Shown piece after piece: positions 10,892 through 34,640 of a DNA stretch of 64,000 nt. A program made the position numbers and the translations under genes. Source of the DNA: Oscillospiraceae bacterium (GTDB taxonomy: Bacteria; Bacillota; Clostridia; Oscillospirales; Acutalibacteraceae). Position 1 is the first letter of the stretch. Each line of letters opens with the position of its first letter. The notes beneath the pieces are model-generated. The model did no database searches and had not been told where the DNA came from. It saw nothing but the letters and a program-made list of their open reading frames with translations. Where the stretch lies: positions 1 through 64,000 of the forward strand of contig SVPG01000003.1 in assembly GCA_015065975.1 (NCBI GenBank), given 5' to 3'.

Positions 10892-11389
10892 TTACTGATT
10901 ATTGAACTTTTCTGCAACTGCACGATCCTTTTCAAGAACCTTCTGAGCTGCTGCTGCTCTCGACTCGGCAAGCTTTGCCGCAAGAGCCTCATCACTTACT
11001 GCGAGAATCTGGATTGCAAGAAGTGCTGCATTTGCCGCACCGTCGATTGCAACAGTTGCAACAGGGATACCTGCCGGCATCTGAACGGTTGAAAGAAGTG
11101 CATCAAGTCCGTCAAGGGTGGAAGACTTGACAGGTATGCCGATAACGGGCAGTGTGGTATTTGCTGCAATCGCACCTGCAAGATGTGCTGCCTTGCCCGC
11201 AGCGGCGATCATAACACCAAAACCGTTCTTTGCGGCATTTGAGGAAAACTCCTTTGCCTCGACCGGTGTTCTGTGTGCCGAATATACGTGAACCTCATAG
11301 GGTACGCCGTACTCCTTGAGAGTATCGATAGCTTTCTCAACTACGGGAAGATCGCTGTCGCTTCCCATTATAACTGCAACCTTTTTCAT
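10892..11389 (-). CDS. purE: N5-CAIR mutase (PurE class I)
   Basis: Rearranges N5-CAIR to CAIR in the purine pathway. The 165-residue protein opens with VAVIMGSDSDLPV and has the conserved SAHRTP and AAGKAAHLAG segments, then GIPVKSSTLDGLDALLSTVQMP. No purK lies next to it. It is the first gene of the purine operon, about 30 bases after the riboswitch terminator, with a purine-rich ribosome site before the ATG. The C-terminal 30 residues are Ala/Glu/Lys rich and probably helical. Confidence 0.95.
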   Translation of the reverse strand: MKKVAVIMGSDSDLPVVEKAIDTLKEYGVPYEVHVYSAHRTPVEAKEFSSNAAKNGFGVMIAAAGKAAHLAGAIAANTTLPVIGIPVKSSTLDGLDALLSTVQMPAGIPVATVAIDGAANAALLAIQILAVSDEALAAKLAESRAAAAQKVLEKDRAVAEKFNNQ

Positions 11390-20816: not shown

Positions 20817-23800
20817 TCAGCCGTTTACGCTCTCGGGATTGAGAAGGTCAATTCTTCTGCCGCCGATAACACCTGTGCAGGTAATGTCAATATCATCTGC
20901 ATCGTATGCAACCGGATTACCCTCGCTGTCACAGAGTTCAAGATAGATGTCGAAGTAGGACGCAGATGTTGCCAACTCGGGAACAGTATGAGTCCATGTG
21001 TCATTGTATTTTACGACTCCGCCGTATGTGACACCATTTCCGGAATACTCTTCACCCTGTTCACGGGCTTCGAGTTCTTCCTCTTCGTCTGCCATTCTGC
21101 TCTCAAATTCGTCCACAAGTTCACCCGTCAACATTTCTTTTAGAAAACCGCATATTTTATCCAATAACGGAGTTTCAGGAACATCTGTTTTTGTCGGTAT
21201 ATTATCAGCGTTTCCTTCTGCGCCAATATTAAACCCATTGAAATCATCGTCAACAACTTTCTCTTCTTTAGATTCGCTCTCAAACAAACTACCATACACA
21301 GTGTTTGCTGTATATAAACCTCCGAAGATTCCATCAAGTTTAAATTTAACATTATCAACCACATCGTTAATATATCCCATTACAGACTTAAAAACTTGGC
21401 TTTTATCACACAACTTATTTGACGCCCAATCAATTATATCATCAAAAGGCACAACACTAATAACCACTTTACCTATTTGAAGTGCATAATTTTTAATACA
21501 GTCGTCCATTTCCTGTTTTGCGATTTTTAAATCGAGTTCATCTATCGCTTTTCCCAGAGCCTCCGCTTCTTTTAACGTTTTATAGATTTCGATTTTTTCC
21601 TGCAAAACATCAAACGACCAACTTAATGTCGCAATCGCACCAAAATCAGGCCAAACCGGAGCAAACTTTTCTCCAATATTACTCATTATTTCTATAAACT
21701 CCGAAATAGCTTTGCGTCTGCCACTTATATTTTCGTTTGTTGCATCATCAGTATAAAAAGCATATGCGTCCACAATTCGGATATTTCTATCCTTAACTGT
21801 CACGTTAACTACAACATCTGTTAAACCTAAATACTCTCGAGCTAAATTATAATCACTTTGATCCGTTTCAAAACCACCAAAAGAATCAATTTGGAATGAG
21901 ATCGGTATATTTTTCCTGTAATCATTCGTGACAGTGTATGACATCACAATTTCTTGGAATGTTGCCGAGCTACAGCCATCTGCTGTTGCACAAGCTGACA
22001 TCAAGGTATGAGTCTGAGAATTTCCATAATAATTACTTGTGCTTGCTCCCGAAGAACAATAAAGCCATTCCGCAGCAAGTGTTTTCGGTGCTTTCTTTTC
22101 GCTTTCTTCTGCTACTATACGATTGAACCTGTTGCTGTAAAAAGCATCATCTACATTAACACCGCTAAATTTATACTGAGTCACGCCTACAGTTTTTTTC
22201 TGATCGCCAACCGTTACAGTGAATTCACCTTCACGACCCTCTGTTTTTTGACCGCCGCTCTCTGTAAGATTGGTGTAGAACGGATCTATTTTCATCGAAC
22301 ACGGATACACATACCATCCGTCTTCTTTTTTCATCGATCCGCAGGAGATGTCAAACCATCCGCTATCATCGCCCACCAAAAGCTCTTCTTTAACATTGGC
22401 AACGATAACGAGATCATTGAATGCAGTCTCCGTATAACTGCCGGTATAGACTACATCCTGTCCTCCGCTTTCATAAAACTCAACCTGATTAACTCTGCCC
22501 ATTGCGTTGGCATGAACTCTTATAATCTCATTATCCAAGCTTCTGTATTCACCCTTATAAACATAAACCTCTATCTCACCCCAATGTGCATAAAGGGTAT
22601 GGTTTTCTGTTGTAGTGCAAACAGTGGATGTATCTACTCTGACTCCGCCTTCGCGCTCTGTATACCAGCCCAGGAATGCCTTTCTGCTATCACTGAGCTC
22701 AGGAACACAGTTTTCCGGATAGGTTTTTCCGATAAATGCCCAGCGAGCATAGTCCTCCGGAATTTCACCGTAACCGTTTTTGTCAAGCGTTACAAACGCA
22801 GGCATAACATCAACCTGATGAACGGGAATCGCAAGCAGCTTACCGCATGCGTCGATTATGATATTAGCTTTACGCTCTCCGGGGCTGTTTTTCTCGCTCA
22901 CGCTTACCTTGAGCTCGGTACCGCTTGCCTTTGTTGCCTGGAGCCAATCGGCAGAAACTTCTTTTACTTTCCAGCCGCCATATTTGCTTTCGATTTTTAC
23001 GCTGAGAAGCTTACCGGTCTTGTCTGTGACAAGATAAGTAGGATTACAGGTAACCTCATTCGGAGATTGTTTTATTTCAATGACCTCTGTTTTGCCGTTT
23101 GCATCAACGGTTACCTTACCAAAACGGGTAATTCCTGTGCTGTTCAGGGTAAGCGAAATTTTAAACGAGCTGTTGTTCGTTCTGATTATGCGCAGCCACT
23201 TCGGACTGTCAGAAGTTACTTCCCATGTATCGCTGTTTGTTCTTACCAAAACCTCAAACTCATTTGCTTTTGCATCCTGCTCGTATTTAGGAACATTGAC
23301 AAGCTCAAGAGTATGCGGATTCTGCTTTATTTCAATTCTCTCTGAAACAGTGCCTGCGCTGACAAACACTGTGCCTACACGCTCTTCGCCAACATCGCTG
23401 GGATCAACCGATATTGCTATTACATTGCCGTTGTATTCTGTTTTTACCCATGCGGTATTCGAGTTTACAATTATGGGAAGACCGGACGTCGTGCTCGCAT
23501 TTACATACTGCTTACCGCCGGGGCCTTCGAAAGTCAGGACATTCTTGTTTAATGTAACCGTATTTGCATCCTGTCTTATATCGATAGTCTCAGACATAAC
23601 ACCTGCCGATACTTTTACGGTTGCAATTCTAACATCAGCATTGCGGTTTACCGCAACCTCAACCTCTATACCGCTTCCGTTCTTGGTTACAGTGACCCAA
23701 TCAGACTCGCATTTGACAGTGAAATCTCTGCCGGATGCTACATTGACGCCTGATGTAATTTTTCCGCCTGCTGCAGCGGGATTATACGAAGTCGCAGTCA

Positions 23801-25424
23801 AAGAAAGACTGTCGCCTTCCTGTCTTACCTTATACGTAATACTGAGATTACCTGCAGAAACGGTTATGGCACCGTAACGTGCATAAAGGAAATAGTTCGG
23901 AGCAGCTTTGACTGTTACTTTCGACGCATCCTTTGTCACTTCGATCCAGTCAGAATCAGACTCAACGCTCCATGAACTGTAATTCGTTGAAGGAATTATG
24001 GCAAAAGTATTTTCTTCGGCTGTGATTGAAATCGTATCGGTTTCCTTATCAAATTCAGCATTCTCTACAGACAGAGAAATCCTGCAGCCCTCCTGCGTAA
24101 TATTGAAATACTCAAACATTCCGCAGGACGTGATTGTAATTTTACCTTTTCTGCTTTCACCGTCGGGATTAGCACTAACCTTAATTGTGAGTTTGTCGCC
24201 GTTCTTGGCTGTTGTAATCCAACCTGCATCGGGAGTAACGTTATATTCGCTCTTTGAGCCGACTTTAACAGTAATTTCGGTAGTTCCGCCCATTACGCCA
24301 AAGTTATACTCATTTCTCGATATTTCAAGACTGTTGCCCTTCTGTGTTACAGGTATAGTCTTTTCAATTTCTCCGCATGTTATTGTTATGGTTCCTTTTC
24401 TCGCATTCAATGAATCGGAATTTGCTTTCGGGGTAAGCGTTATGGAACCTGTATTCTTTGTGACCTCAAGCCAGCTTATATTCTCAGATACACCAAAGCT
24501 TCCATTGCCCGCTTCAATGGTGACTTCAGCCGGATCAGCACTTGCTTCAAGCGTGAACTCAGCGGGCACATTAAGATAATTCTCCTTCTGAGTTACATCT
24601 ATCGAACCGTACATATTGCCGCTTCTGAGGGTAATTCTTGCAGTTCTCGGAAGAGTGAATGAATTCGGGACAGTTGTAATCGTTACTGAAGTATCGTTCT
24701 CTGTCACTGTAATCCAGTTCGCATCACATTCGACAGTAAGCGCTCCTGTACCTGTAGATACAGCTATGGTCTTTGTCTGTCCTGCCGCATTTGATTCCCA
24801 GGATTTCTCAGCAGGTGTAACATAGTTTGCCGACTGCGTGACGGTAACCGTCTTGTGTATGGTTCCGCAATTGATGTTAAACGTCGCACTTCTCTTTGCA
24901 CCGGAGTTTGCAGTCGCCGAAACAAGCACATTGCTTCCTGACTTTTTTACTGTCAACCAGCTTTGTGACGGCGTACCGAGAGTAAAAGTAAGACCACTCG
25001 AAACACTGAGTGTTTTCTGGGTACCCGCTGCACTCAACTGAAAGCTATCGCTTACAGTAACATAATTCGCTTTCTGACTGACATTGATAGTCGCAGTATC
25101 TCCCATACTTTCAAGCACAACCTTACCGGAGCGTGAATACGCCTGCTGATTTGCGCTTGCCGAGAGTTTTAATTTACCTGTATTGACTCCGCTGGTCGTT
25201 ATCCAGCTCGGTTTAGACTTTATTGACCAGGTGTTATTGTAGTTAACAGTGATTTCTTTACTTCCGCCACTTACTTCGAATTCCCACGAAGTGGTAAGCG
25301 GTTTCAGTACCACCACCGCATCGACCTGCATACTGCCGAAAAGCGCAGTAAGCATGGCCAGCAGCATCAAGATAGAGACAGCTATCGTGATTTTCTGTTT
25401 AGTACACATTCTTCCCTCTGCCAT
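20817..25424 (-). CDS. Giant secreted protein with ten BACON-like repeats and an InlB-type repeat
   Basis: Predicted exported protein of 1535 residues, function unknown. A hydrophobic signal segment covers about residues 11-30. About ten BACON-like beta-sandwich repeats follow (roughly residues 45-872, about 85 each). Each has a W-I/L/V-x-V/T core (SWITTS, SWLTVKK, NWITVTEN, SWLEVTKN, GWITTAKN, DWIEVTKD, DWVTVTKN, AWVKTEYN, KWLRIIRT, DWLQATKA) and ends in a V-T-Q or I-K-Q strand. An InlB/Listeria-Bacteroides type repeat follows at about 878-950 (AFLGWYTEREGG, TLYAHWGE). The last 450 residues have no recognised fold and are more AT-rich. No LPxTG anchor is visible. BACON domains are mostly known from Bacteroidetes, where they bind glycans or mucin, so adhesion or glycan binding is a guess. 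GAGGTG precedes the ATG by 8 bases; a second ATG five codons later is possible. Confidence 0.85.
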   Translation of the reverse strand: MAEGRMCTKQKITIAVSILMLLAMLTALFGSMQVDAVVVLKPLTTSWEFEVSGGSKEITVNYNNTWSIKSKPSWITTSGVNTGKLKLSASANQQAYSRSGKVVLESMGDTATINVSQKANYVTVSDSFQLSAAGTQKTLSVSSGLTFTLGTPSQSWLTVKKSGSNVLVSATANSGAKRSATFNINCGTIHKTVTVTQSANYVTPAEKSWESNAAGQTKTIAVSTGTGALTVECDANWITVTENDTSVTITTVPNSFTLPRTARITLRSGNMYGSIDVTQKENYLNVPAEFTLEASADPAEVTIEAGNGSFGVSENISWLEVTKNTGSITLTPKANSDSLNARKGTITITCGEIEKTIPVTQKGNSLEISRNEYNFGVMGGTTEITVKVGSKSEYNVTPDAGWITTAKNGDKLTIKVSANPDGESRKGKITITSCGMFEYFNITQEGCRISLSVENAEFDKETDTISITAEENTFAIIPSTNYSSWSVESDSDWIEVTKDASKVTVKAAPNYFLYARYGAITVSAGNLSITYKVRQEGDSLSLTATSYNPAAAGGKITSGVNVASGRDFTVKCESDWVTVTKNGSGIEVEVAVNRNADVRIATVKVSAGVMSETIDIRQDANTVTLNKNVLTFEGPGGKQYVNASTTSGLPIIVNSNTAWVKTEYNGNVIAISVDPSDVGEERVGTVFVSAGTVSERIEIKQNPHTLELVNVPKYEQDAKANEFEVLVRTNSDTWEVTSDSPKWLRIIRTNNSSFKISLTLNSTGITRFGKVTVDANGKTEVIEIKQSPNEVTCNPTYLVTDKTGKLLSVKIESKYGGWKVKEVSADWLQATKASGTELKVSVSEKNSPGERKANIIIDACGKLLAIPVHQVDVMPAFVTLDKNGYGEIPEDYARWAFIGKTYPENCVPELSDSRKAFLGWYTEREGGVRVDTSTVCTTTENHTLYAHWGEIEVYVYKGEYRSLDNEIIRVHANAMGRVNQVEFYESGGQDVVYTGSYTETAFNDLVIVANVKEELLVGDDSGWFDISCGSMKKEDGWYVYPCSMKIDPFYTNLTESGGQKTEGREGEFTVTVGDQKKTVGVTQYKFSGVNVDDAFYSNRFNRIVAEESEKKAPKTLAAEWLYCSSGASTSNYYGNSQTHTLMSACATADGCSSATFQEIVMSYTVTNDYRKNIPISFQIDSFGGFETDQSDYNLAREYLGLTDVVVNVTVKDRNIRIVDAYAFYTDDATNENISGRRKAISEFIEIMSNIGEKFAPVWPDFGAIATLSWSFDVLQEKIEIYKTLKEAEALGKAIDELDLKIAKQEMDDCIKNYALQIGKVVISVVPFDDIIDWASNKLCDKSQVFKSVMGYINDVVDNVKFKLDGIFGGLYTANTVYGSLFESESKEEKVVDDDFNGFNIGAEGNADNIPTKTDVPETPLLDKICGFLKEMLTGELVDEFESRMADEEEELEAREQGEEYSGNGVTYGGVVKYNDTWTHTVPELATSASYFDIYLELCDSEGNPVAYDADDIDITCTGVIGGRRIDLLNPESVNG

Positions 25425-25818: not shown

Positions 25819-26265
25819 TTAACCTTTTGAATAATACTGCGTCTGTGCGACAGCGAGTGTGTCACAGCGCTCGTTATACGGATGGCCCGCGTGACCCTTC
25901 ACCCAGACAAACACAACATTGTGAACATCGAGCAGGTCGAGCAGCTCGCTCCACAGCTCGGGATTGAGCGCCTTTTCTCCCCCACTCTTCTTCCAGCCCT
26001 TGGCTCTCCACGATTTTGCCCAGCCCTTTGTAACGCTGTCCGAAACATATTTTGAATCGGTTGTCAGAACTACGTCGCAAGGCATTTTCAGCGCTTTGAG
26101 CGCTTCTATCACCGCTGTCAGCTCCATACGGTTATTTGTCGTCTGAGGGGAACCTCCCGACATTTCTTTTTCGACGCCGTTGTACACCAGAACTGCACCC
26201 CAGCCTCCCGGACCGGGATTGCCGCTGCACGAACCGTCTGTATATATATTCACCTTTTTTCTCAT
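25819..26265 (-). CDS. rnhA: Ribonuclease HI
   Basis: Cleaves RNA in RNA-DNA hybrids during replication and repair. The 148-residue protein has the RNase H fold with the four acidic metal ligands: [16 protein letters not shown] (Asp10), [13 protein letters not shown] (Glu), LTTDSKYV (Asp) and the C-terminal NERCDTLA (Asp), plus the HAGHPYN loop with the conserved His. No hybrid-binding N-terminal domain is present, so it is the type I E. coli-like form. It is a single gene between two terminated neighbours. Confidence 0.96.
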
Positions 26266-26328
26266 ATCCGAACCACCGTTCTTACCTTGGCTTCCGATCT
26301 CTTTGATACAAAAGCTTCAAAATATATA

Positions 26329-26358
26329 TTGATTTGTTTTATTGCGTTGTGATATACT
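26329..26358 (+). promoter_or_regulatory. Promoter of the cysteine-rich small protein
   Basis: TTGATT (26329-26334) and TATACT (26353-26358) are separated by 18 bases, about 38 bases before the start codon. Confidence 0.6.
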
Positions 26359-26395
26359 GGAAACAGCAAACTGAACAGAAAGGAACGTTCTCATT

Positions 26396-26602
26396 ATGGA
26401 TATTCAGGAACTTGTCAAGCGACAGGCTGTTTCGAAGATTCTGCTTGTTGTGGTTATTGCTGTTGCAGTCATTCTCGTTCTCGGCTATTTCAGCTCGAGC
26501 TGCGGCTGTGTCAGCTGCGATCTCGTAAGCGGCTGCTCCGACTGTGCAAGAAGCTGCGCAAGCTGCGGAAGCTGCATCACCGACTGCATCTGCAGCGGCT
26601 GA
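26396..26602 (+). CDS. Small cysteine-rich single-pass membrane protein
   Basis: A 68-residue protein of unknown function. Residues 1-13 are charged, 14-31 form one strongly hydrophobic helix (KILLVVVIAVAVILVLGYF), and the last 36 residues carry ten cysteines spaced mostly by two or three residues (SCGCVSCDL, SDCARSCASCGSC). The reading frame is real: it has a promoter, an AAAGGA ribosome site and a strong terminator directly after it. The Cys tail could face outside and form disulfides, or bind metal; neither can be decided. The charge pattern, with two positively charged residues before the helix, fits an N-in orientation. No peptide-modification or export genes are adjacent. Confidence 0.7.
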   Translation: MDIQELVKRQAVSKILLVVVIAVAVILVLGYFSSSCGCVSCDLVSGCSDCARSCASCGSCITDCICSG

Positions 26603-26617
26603 TAAAAAAGCATTTTA

Positions 26618-26650
26618 TACGCCGGCACATTTTTTTACTGTGCCGGCGTA
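26618..26650. terminator. Bidirectional terminator between convergent genes
   Basis: A perfect 12-bp stem (TACGCCGGCACA and its complement) with a T-rich loop has a T-run on the plus side and an AT-rich tail on the minus side. It ends both the Cys-rich gene and the zinc-ribbon gene. Confidence 0.85.
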
Positions 26651-26655
26651 AATTT

Positions 26656-27495
26656 TTATATCTGAACATCCTGTACTGCGGGATCCTCCGGCACGACCGT
26701 ATCATCAACATAGTTACCCTTTTCGGGCGGGACTATCTCAAGATAATAAATCCACAGTGCAATCGAATCGCGATAATCATTGTAGCAATCGGAGGGTGTC
26801 GAAATCGCAAGCACGAAATCGTATTCCGTATTCTGCTCGGCGGAGGTCAGCATAACGAGCTCGACAACGCAGTTGTCCTCGGTGCTCGATGCGGGAATGA
26901 GTGCTCTCTCTCGATTATATGTTGCGCCGTTGCAGACAACAGTATCAGCTTCCTCAAAATTCGGGAGCTCTATGAGGTTCGGATAGAGCACGCTGATATG
27001 TCCGTAAAGACCGCTGGCGGATTTGAGTCTGCGGTACATTCTTACAGTTACCCTGTCATCAACCACGCGTTCTTCAAACATCGTTCCGTCAGAATATGCG
27101 TCCTGATAATTGAGGATATAGCTGTTCATATAGTTACCGGAGATATAAAGCATATCGCGCGTATTGACAACCGTATCAAGCGCCGCCGTTGTAGTTGTTG
27201 TGGTCTTTACGGTCTGTTCCGGCTTTGTTATCTGAGGAAGCTTGAACGAAATCTTCGGCACAACAAACAGACCGACGCAAAGAACGGCCATCGCCGAAAC
27301 GATCGTGACCAGAAGCTGCCACACCTTAAGATCAAAGAACCTGGTTCTTTTATTCATGACCTTTTTCGGACTTGCAAGCTTTATCTTAAAACTGAGTTTC
27401 TTTTTCTCTTTTTTTACAGTATAACCGCAGCCGCGGCACACGCCGCCTTTACCGGTTATCTCTCTTCCGCATCTGAGACAAATCATTGTAACCAA
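26656..27495 (-). CDS. Zinc-ribbon single-pass membrane protein
   Basis: Unknown function. The 279-residue protein begins with a short zinc ribbon (ICLRCG and VCRGCGY, four Cys at about residues 6, 9, 20 and 23), a Lys-rich stretch, one transmembrane helix at about 60-79, and then an extracytoplasmic domain of 200 residues after a Thr-rich linker. This layout, a cytosolic zinc ribbon tethered to an external domain, is common in uncharacterised Clostridia proteins. The boundary uses a TTG start 6 bases after AAAGG; an ATG three codons later is also possible. Confidence 0.75.
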   Translation of the reverse strand: MVTMICLRCGREITGKGGVCRGCGYTVKKEKKKLSFKIKLASPKKVMNKRTRFFDLKVWQLLVTIVSAMAVLCVGLFVVPKISFKLPQITKPEQTVKTTTTTTAALDTVVNTRDMLYISGNYMNSYILNYQDAYSDGTMFEERVVDDRVTVRMYRRLKSASGLYGHISVLYPNLIELPNFEEADTVVCNGATYNRERALIPASSTEDNCVVELVMLTSAEQNTEYDFVLAISTPSDCYNDYRDSIALWIYYLEIVPPEKGNYVDDTVVPEDPAVQDVQI

Positions 27496-32098: not shown

Positions 32099-34591
32099 TT
32101 AGTCGACATATTCCATGGACGGTGTCCACAGCTCGTTTCCGTAAATATCGGTCAGGCAATAGCTGTATCTGCAATTACCCATGACACTCTTATTGCTTAT
32201 TGTGATATTGCCGTTGACGGTCATCTGCTCGCCGAGCATATAGCTGTCGGAATATACGCCGTCATAGGTATAATAGTCACAGAGGAAGTCGATAACGTCG
32301 CCGTTCTTGAGCTCGACAAGTCCCTTTGCTTCGACCGCTGTTGCGCCGTCATAGTTGATGCGGGCGCCGACAACGATTCCGTTTTCGTTCTCGTTATCAA
32401 ACTGAACGATAAGATCCATCAGCTCACCGTTGAGCAGGATGGGGATTCTGCCGGTTATGACATAGTTGTCGCCCGAAACGTCATACGACTCCATATAATA
32501 GCTGACAACATGGTCGTTGAGATAGAGCCAAGTGCCGTCGTATCCGAGAAGCAGGTCGGAATTATCGTCAAACTCATAGACATTGTCCATACCGAGATCG
32601 ATATATCCAGTGCCGTCGTCGTAGAACACGTTGAGCTCGATATCCTGCACAAGCTCCCATTCCTCGTCGGTCAGCTTGAGAACGGGTGTCTTGCCGCTGT
32701 TGTCAACGCCGTGGATAACGCTTGCCGGGTCGAGATAGTTGTTCTCATAATAGCTCTGCTGAGCCATGATCTTATCGGAGCTGAACCAGCCCATAAGCTG
32801 TCCGACATCGAATGTGTTGGAGGAGCTGCTGTTTCCGAGGAAGAGCGGGAGCAGCGTTCCGATGAGGTCTGTATTATTGGACGAGGAGCCCGAACCGCCA
32901 AGCATACCGATAAGGGAAAGAAGCGAATCGCTTCCGCCGCCGAAGAGCGACGATTCCTGAGAACCGATTCCGCCGGAGATGATCTGTCCGCCGGCAGACA
33001 CGTTCGCAAAGCTTCTCACACACTCAGTGTATGCGCTGTCCATTCCGATCTTGTTGTAGGTATTGATAAGCTTGTCAAGGTTGCCCGATTTTCCGTACGG
33101 GAAATAAATGGATATACCGTTTGCTCCGCCGATATTGGAGGAGGTACGGTTATACTTGACGCAGTTCTTGAGGATTGCCGCGAGCTGATTGGACTCGGCA
33201 GTATTGAGATTCTCACAGAGATTGATAAGATCGCACTGGTTGATGCCGGAAGAGAATTCCTTTGTGCTGCTTCTTGCATTGGACACGATCTTATAATCGG
33301 TATTTATCGTGCTGTTGACCGATGCGGCAAAGTTGGTGAATGCCTGACCTGCCGTTCCGTCGAGCTCTGCGAGGTCGACAATGGAAAGGGTAGTCTTGTT
33401 GGTCGGGGAATTTCTGTAGCACTCGTCTACAAAATCGTCGATGATCTCTTTACCGAGCGTTACGGTATTTATCTTTGTATTCTTCGAGAGAAAAGTCAGC
33501 CAGTTGGTATAGTACCATCCGCAGCCGGGCTCTGTTTCCTCGGATGCGATAAGGTAGTCAGCATAGTCCTCCATGACAAGCGCTGTCTCGAGAGTTGCCA
33601 TAAGGCAGGCATCAAAGCCGATGAAGTCGAACTTTACGCCTGCTGCGCCGATTGCCGAATCGAGCTTGTCAAGTGTGAGGGAGCCTGTATTGGAGGTCTC
33701 GTCATAACCGAAGCCCGAAACCGATCCTCCGCCGTGATCCCAGAAGATAAGTATGTTTCTGTCAGCGGGATAATTCTGGGAGCAGAACTTGATGAAGTTT
33801 GTGAGCGTGGACGGATTTACCATCGACTGCTTGCCGAGGTCGGCAACCTTCTGCATACCTGCGCTTGTGATTCGCCATATCTCGTTTGTGCTCGAGGAAA
33901 TGGTATCGTTCTTCCACTTGCTGCAGCCGCCTGTCTCAACGATTACGTTGACATTGCTGCCGATCTTTGCGCCGAGCATTTCCTGGATATCCTTTGTCGC
34001 CATACCGTACTTGCTCTCAAGGTCGGTCGCGCACATATAGATCATGACCGTGACGGTCTCGCTCGAGGAAGTATTGCAATACTTCGTTCTCGCAGAAGCG
34101 GACACGTTAAGGTCGGCGCTGTGCTCTGCACTGTTTGTTCCTGCAACACCCGTGAAGGTACTGGACGGTGCCATATTCAGGCAGCTCGTCATATCCATAC
34201 CCGAACCCGAGGATGCACCTGCGCACGCATTTCCACCGGTGCAGCTCGATACCACATAGAACAGCACGATAACAGCGATCGCGATCATGATTATCTTGCC
34301 GTATTTTGACTTGAGAAGCTTCTGTGCGCCAAGGGATCCCGCAAGACTGAGGCATCCGCTGAGGCTGCTTCCGGATATTGTCGGGAAGGAGGCTCTGTTT
34401 CCCGAGCCCGAACCGCCCGAGAATCCTCCGAACGAGCTGCTCTGGCTGTTTTTGCGTGAGTATCCGTCCGATTTGCCGACCGGTCTTCTGTTATTTGAGC
34501 TTATAGCAGAACCTCTGCGTCTGACTCCGCCGCCACCGCTTGTGACGTTCTTGCGTCTGCCGCCGCTTCCGGGCTTTCTGTTGACTGCCAT
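32099..34591 (-). CDS. Membrane-anchored clostripain-like (C11) protease
   Basis: Predicted cysteine protease of family C11, clan CD, cutting after basic residues in known members. With the ATG of MAVNRKPGSG it has 830 residues; GAGGAG lies about 11 bases before that ATG, while an upstream GTG touches the site. A Ser/Gly/Arg-rich cytosolic head (about 95 residues) precedes one transmembrane helix (about residues 99-115). The protease domain then has VMIYMCATDLES, the catalytic His in IFWDHGGGSVSG and the catalytic Cys in GFDACLMATLE. The C-terminal 350 residues include a beta-rich region of unknown fold. The head is unlike typical secreted clostripain and suggests a type II membrane protein. 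Confidence 0.88.
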   Translation of the reverse strand: MAVNRKPGSGGRRKNVTSGGGGVRRRGSAISSNNRRPVGKSDGYSRKNSQSSSFGGFSGGSGSGNRASFPTISGSSLSGCLSLAGSLGAQKLLKSKYGKIIMIAIAVIVLFYVVSSCTGGNACAGASSGSGMDMTSCLNMAPSSTFTGVAGTNSAEHSADLNVSASARTKYCNTSSSETVTVMIYMCATDLESKYGMATKDIQEMLGAKIGSNVNVIVETGGCSKWKNDTISSSTNEIWRITSAGMQKVADLGKQSMVNPSTLTNFIKFCSQNYPADRNILIFWDHGGGSVSGFGYDETSNTGSLTLDKLDSAIGAAGVKFDFIGFDACLMATLETALVMEDYADYLIASEETEPGCGWYYTNWLTFLSKNTKINTVTLGKEIIDDFVDECYRNSPTNKTTLSIVDLAELDGTAGQAFTNFAASVNSTINTDYKIVSNARSSTKEFSSGINQCDLINLCENLNTAESNQLAAILKNCVKYNRTSSNIGGANGISIYFPYGKSGNLDKLINTYNKIGMDSAYTECVRSFANVSAGGQIISGGIGSQESSLFGGGSDSLLSLIGMLGGSGSSSNNTDLIGTLLPLFLGNSSSSNTFDVGQLMGWFSSDKIMAQQSYYENNYLDPASVIHGVDNSGKTPVLKLTDEEWELVQDIELNVFYDDGTGYIDLGMDNVYEFDDNSDLLLGYDGTWLYLNDHVVSYYMESYDVSGDNYVITGRIPILLNGELMDLIVQFDNENENGIVVGARINYDGATAVEAKGLVELKNGDVIDFLCDYYTYDGVYSDSYMLGEQMTVNGNITISNKSVMGNCRYSYCLTDIYGNELWTPSMEYVD

Positions 34592-34640
34592 TTTAAACTT
34601 CACTCCTCATAAACTTGATACCTAAAAATGTTATCAAGTA

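Follow-up and report, generated by a model that had tools for sequence, protein, structure and literature searches.

We describe a gene at 26396-26602 (+ strand, TGA stop codon included) of the window, by which we mean the whole 64,000-nucleotide stretch of DNA that was analyzed. As judged from its sequence, it encodes a conserved, genus-restricted orphan, an apparently monocistronic, single-pass membrane microprotein with ten cysteines in its C-terminal tail. This tail appears to be a free-standing version of the Cys-rich “collars” that unrelated anchored outer proteins carry. The best explanation, in our opinion, is an outward, free-standing collar whose reduced thiols would form a metallothionein-like cluster binding a soft metal at the outer surface of the membrane; taken as a whole, this explanation is possible rather than probable. 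The anatomy of the protein is well supported, whereas its mechanism is one that we infer, with metal binding being the least certain part.

Anatomy of the gene and its product

The product, from a gut bacterium, has 68 amino acids: a basic N-terminus (MDIQELVKRQAVSK), one membrane helix, and a Cys-rich C-terminal tail. The first-pass annotation had proposed a small membrane protein with ten cysteines in 36 residues, made of one helix and a Cys/Ser/Gly tail; the open reading frame and the count hold, and the description of the architecture was right. The hydrophobic core of the helix comprises residues 15-32 (26438-26491, +), and an AlphaFold2 model from a two-sequence alignment has a helix at residues 4-33, with a mean pLDDT of 67. 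The 36-residue tail (residues 33-68; 26492-26599, +), which the placement of Lys and Arg predicts to lie outside, is modeled without confidence (block means of 49-61). It has exactly ten cysteines, at positions 36, 38, 41, 47, 50, 54, 57, 60, 64, and 66. Their spacing, earlier called regular, is so only in part, as the gaps between successive cysteines are uneven (2, 3, 6, 3, 4, 3, 3, 4, and 2). Cysteine accounts for 10 of the 31 residues from the first to the last, CxC occurring twice and CxxC four times, and this span is devoid of His, Phe, Trp, and Tyr in both orthologs.

Ten cysteines in 36 residues exceeds chance. Of the window's 784 open frames with 40 codons or more, only two are this dense, and 30 first-order Markov windows yielded at most seven cysteines per 36 residues. 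The other such frame, at 10892-11089 (+), is antisense to an Ala-rich ORF (10892-11389, -) that we take to be PurE-like; it cautions that Cys-rich frames can arise opposite Ala-rich genes.

Candidate expression signals are present at both ends of the gene. The putative promoter (26329-26358, +; score 9/12) consists of a -35 element TTGATT (26329-26334), an 18-nt spacer, and an extended -10 element TG-A-TATACT (26350-26358), with TG before the -10. Promoter-like sites number 11 in the 3 kb scanned versus 4.9 expected, such that this site alone would be weak support, and a better-scoring site at 26303-26330 overlaps it. At the orthologous locus (L002), both hexamers, their spacing, and the TG are identical. 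A likely ribosome-binding site, AAAGGA (26379-26384, +), read from the sequence, precedes the ATG by 11 nt; the same hexamer is found 12 nt before the ATG at the orthologous locus. Downstream, a hairpin of 12 bp with a 9-nt loop, followed by a T run (26618-26660, +; -22.3 kcal/mol, z -6.2), is a candidate intrinsic terminator that may be shared with the convergent gene. A simple terminator scan did not list this hairpin, whose loop of 9 nt compares with an allowed 3-8 nt. The ortholog has a different hairpin in the same place and of similar strength (-22.6 kcal/mol, z -5.1), rebuilt from different sequence. The earlier conclusion that the gene is expressed, drawn from its having a promoter and a terminator, is not proven by such signals.

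The divergent upstream neighbor (25819-26265, -) is ribonuclease HI (PF00075, 2e-44; NF001236, 4e-62). The convergent neighbor (26656-27495, -) has a Zn-ribbon-like N-terminus, one helix, and an outer domain, and it matches no family over the cut-off; relatives of its product occur in all four genus genomes and in 0 of 56 other relatives (E 1e-5). In the relative from one of these genomes (G003), two cysteines (SCLSC) directly follow the helix; the window copy lacks them. The gene at 26396-26602 is not flanked by a metal transporter, a metal sensor, or any other gene related to metals, and neither of the two adjoining genes encodes a peptide-modifying enzyme. A large exported protein of 1535 residues is encoded at 20817-25424 (-); BACON domains make up most of it, and a List_Bact_rpt-type repeat lies close to the end.

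Conservation and distribution

Among 60 relatives, we found one convincing homolog (G002:C193:541-741; E 1e-16, 48% identity), in a genome of the same genus. It too lies between a divergent ribonuclease HI gene and a convergent gene for a Zn-ribbon-like membrane protein. The conservation of the frame and of the cysteines in relatives had been singled out for checking by the first-pass annotation, as had a search for homologs with the same Cys spacing; in this one ortholog, the frame is kept and all ten tail cysteines are retained at identical spacing, as compared to only 7 of the 25 other tail residues (one-sided Fisher p 1e-4, for one sequence pair). By the Nei-Gojobori method, dN is 0.44 and dS is 1.50 (near saturation), giving a dN/dS of about 0.3, and the other two forward frames are broken by stops in the ortholog. 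By these measures, the frame is under purifying selection.

The gene was found in two of the four genomes of the genus (G000, that of the window, and G002), all four being drafts with a completeness of 80-87%. A profile of the two orthologs revealed no further ortholog in either the 398 genomes of the family or the 394 of the order, sets that overlap. Besides the orthologs, its matches at E 0.001, in 5 of the 398 and 4 of the 394, were small FeoB-type proteins (G180, G400, G499, and G736) and clusters of cysteines within larger proteins (one in G014, and a second site in G002). A single-protein query against the genome contigs found no relative. A DNA pattern encoding the spacing of seven cysteines occurred in 26 of the 398 family genomes, G000 and G002 among them, and a reversed control also matched some; in the 24 other genomes, the matches were viewed as DNA only, many being TGC/TGT-rich repeats by eye, and relatives with exact spacing are possible there. 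Ribonuclease HI was found in 57 relatives, and 30 of these loci were checked for an adjacent small Cys-rich ORF: only those of this gene and its ortholog encode a helix with a Cys tail, the remaining small Cys-containing frames having been dismissed as spurious by eye. Nor was such an ORF seen by eye beside the relatives of the 26656-27495 gene in G001 and G003.

No family match was obtained in Pfam, NCBIfam, or PHROG. Among solved structures, four chains were matched at E values up to 10, the best being 1.4 and none meaningful, and our search of the open-licence PMC literature brought up neither this protein nor juxtamembrane Cys collars. A mobile or viral origin was rejected, given that tblastn against phages and plasmids gave no match and that viral contigs gave none either. 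An RNA element was likewise rejected, with no Rfam match near the gathering score (best E 0.17).

Cysteine collars on other anchored proteins

The recurrence of Cys collars is more surprising than the modest standalone gene. In a DUF5050 protein of the same genome (G000:C20:35505-36743; PF16472, 6.8e-11), a Zn-ribbon-like N-terminus and one helix are directly followed by nine cysteines in strict period 3. Its relatives (loci L080-L084) have 10, 12, 18, and 6 cysteines in G002, G003, G001, and G014, respectively; the length of the ladder thus varies from 6 to 18, mostly as strict Cxx repeats, and it precedes the DUF5050 domain. In G001, the helix of a VanY-family carboxypeptidase (G001:C104:6507-6617; PF02557, 3.9e-35) is immediately followed by a stretch with six cysteines. 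The window itself contains a weak collar, on a membrane-anchored clostripain-family (C11) protease (32099-34603, -; PF03415, 2.3e-44), in which a long basic N-terminus and the helix are soon followed by three cysteines (VVSSCTGGNACAGASSGSGMDMTSC), the first of them in a lipobox-like VSSC.

A helix-plus-collar profile (A3), built mostly from genus members and therefore partly circular as a measure of genus enrichment, matched 27 of the 398 family genomes; at most 16 candidates were scored per genome, making these counts lower bounds. In the four genus genomes, at least nine large proteins have similar Cys clusters right after a helix. Four of the nine come from outside A3 (G000:C5, G001:C3, G001:C56, and G001:C104), and one of these, the 438-residue frame G000:C5, is by eye related to an A3 member (G002:C67). 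Beyond the genus, the profile matched 23 of 394 genomes, 20 with small FeoB-type proteins and three with large ones: a DUF5050 protein in G014, DHHW-family proteins in G260 and G033, and also a GDSL-type protein in G260. Only the G014 protein has more than two cysteines after the helix. A period-3 pattern of four cysteines proved to be mostly noise in the genus (38 matches in G000 versus 25 in the control). Because of the circularity of the profile and the selection of matches, collar enrichment still needs an unbiased count. Further, common descent of the DUF5050 collars and this gene is not established, since the number of cysteines varies and period 3 is unlike the tail.

The distribution of basic residues separates the collars from the FeoB-type proteins. 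In all 16 collar proteins tabulated, both orthologs included, Lys and Arg are more numerous on the N-terminal side of the helix, but this holds for 0 of 23 small FeoB-type proteins (with one tie). Both sets were picked, non-randomly, from search matches; four of the 16 collar proteins have only two cysteines after the helix, and the C11 protease of the window is not one of the 16. A Pfam scan covered nine of the 23 FeoB-type proteins, and all nine match PF12669 at E 0.01, not all above the cut-off. By the positive-inside rule, the N-terminus of the microprotein would be cytoplasmic and its Cys tail outside, whereas the cysteines of the FeoB-type proteins are predicted to be inside. The simple plan of “one helix plus Cys tail” would therefore hide two topologically opposite classes that profile searches mix up.

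Possible functions of the tail

How might ten thiols, predicted to face outward, be used? Given the reducing surroundings in which an anaerobe lives, they could stay largely reduced. They might then form a metallothionein-like thiolate cluster with soft metal ions, i.e. Zn(II), Cu(I), or Fe(II), and such a cluster, at the outer surface of the membrane, would buffer or sequester metal there. VKOR was detected in none of the four genus drafts (80-87% complete) and DsbD/CcdA in one (G003); as neither was detected in G000 or G002, the two carriers of the gene show no sign of dedicated disulfide machinery of these two types. This pattern, together with the metallothionein-like composition of the tail, is the reason for our placing a reduced metal-binding cluster first and disulfides second. 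Besides the lack of an adjoining metal gene, we count against the metal cluster that neither metallothionein nor any other Pfam family is matched, that only two orthologs are known and two of the four genus drafts have no match, and that the exact spacing and even number of the cysteines equally suit fixed disulfides. Cysteines outside the cell are not exceptional in this organism, as the outer residues of two anchored or exported proteins of the window include 17 Cys (out of 717) and 20 Cys (out of 1507), respectively. The ten predicted outward-facing cysteines and the repeated collars of the genus point to thiol chemistry on the outer surface of an anaerobe, and this is directly testable.

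The foremost competing explanation, which we consider rather unlikely, is that the tail is a disulfide cross-linker or redox buffer, its cysteines pairing within the molecule, between copies, or with other collars to make a covalent surface network. Their even number and their invariance of spacing in the two sequences agree with this notion, as does the presence in the same genome of potential partners with cysteines at the same height (G000:C20, G000:C5, and 32099-34603 of the window). The introduction of PMC12453122 can be read both ways: it mentions DsbA and VKOR enzymes in some Clostridia, but also describes Clostridia as being without quinones and obligate anaerobes as tending to exclude cysteine from exported proteins. 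The scarcity of VKOR and DsbD/CcdA in the genus drafts, noted above, speaks against it as well. A more far-reaching proposal is that, in a lineage of gut Clostridia, the collar is a module of the outer face, grafted onto unrelated surface proteins; the microprotein would be its unattached form, linking or servicing these proteins by way of mixed disulfides or of metal-thiolate clusters held in common. The literature searched describes no such thiol glue at the membrane surface, and we regard the proposal as improbable.

The helix occupies the position of a signal peptide, with Cys36 a few residues beyond it; the protein could thus be a lipoprotein, or the precursor of a secreted Cys-rich peptide of roughly 30 residues released by cleavage before or near Cys36. 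A lipobox pattern does fit the C11 protease of the window and the VanY-type protein of G001. Before Cys36, however, stands SSS here and FQD in the ortholog, and [LVI][ASTVI][GAS]C is absent from both, on which ground we rejected a lipoprotein. The peptide-precursor idea, raised in the first-pass annotation, gained no support: by eye, the two sequences share no signal-peptidase motif or other processing site, no precursor family is matched, and the scanned neighbors are not peptide-modifying enzymes. We judge both variants very unlikely. Slightly less credible still is an iron-delivery helper like the FeoB-associated Cys-rich membrane proteins (PF12669) that has moved away from feoB. Size and plan are the same, weak profile matches link the two groups, and hhalign against eight FeoB-type proteins gives a probability of 95; but this alignment covers only the helix (columns 14-35), with no conserved pairing in the tail, neither ortholog matches PF12669 even at E 10 (all eight small proteins in set A4 match it at E 0.01), the predicted topology is opposite, and the gene lacks an adjoining feo gene. 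The faintest prospect of all is a small iron-sulfur protein. The stretch C54-x2-C57-x2-C60-x3-C64, kept in the ortholog, fits CxxCxxCxxxC, a cluster motif of ferredoxins, and a ferredoxin is the second-best PDB match of the profile. Its E value of 2.7 is not significant, though, no ferredoxin Pfam family is matched, and a stretch with this many cysteines readily produces motifs of the sort. The tail is, moreover, predicted to be outside, where cluster assembly is generally not expected.

Comparison with known systems

The microprotein resembles the PF12669 proteins in its size (about 50-70 residues), its single membrane helix, and its Cys-rich C-terminal tail. In PF12669 proteins, however, a stretch rich in Lys and Arg lies between the helix and the cysteines, whereas here the basic residues precede the helix and the cysteines start right after it. 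A FeoB-like gene adjoins the FeoB-type genes in the three loci inspected by eye, but no feo gene adjoins this one or its ortholog. On profile, predicted topology, and gene context, we rejected membership in the FeoB-associated group. As to that group, PMC8749426 treats the translation of its ORFs as an unanswered question and names metal binding and redox sensing as possible reasons for their cysteines.

The collars of the genus (DUF5050, VanY-type, and others) are alike in that a Cys-rich stretch filled with Ser, Gly, and Ala directly follows the helix, with Lys and Arg on the N-terminal side. They differ in having a large outer domain, and the DUF5050 collars mostly keep a strict period of 3, which the tail of the microprotein does not.

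With metallothioneins, the tail shares a Cys content of about 30%, CxC and CxxC pairs, and a Cys span free of aromatic residues. Such pairs and the lack of aromatic residues in the Cys span are metallothionein features. PMC10334657 puts mammalian metallothioneins at about 30% Cys. No metallothionein profile is matched, the sole Pfam-A match at E 10 being a plant Cys-rich domain that scores well below its cut-off (E 3.1 and 0.32). The tail described here also differs in its setting: it is anchored in the membrane and predicted to lie outside the cell.
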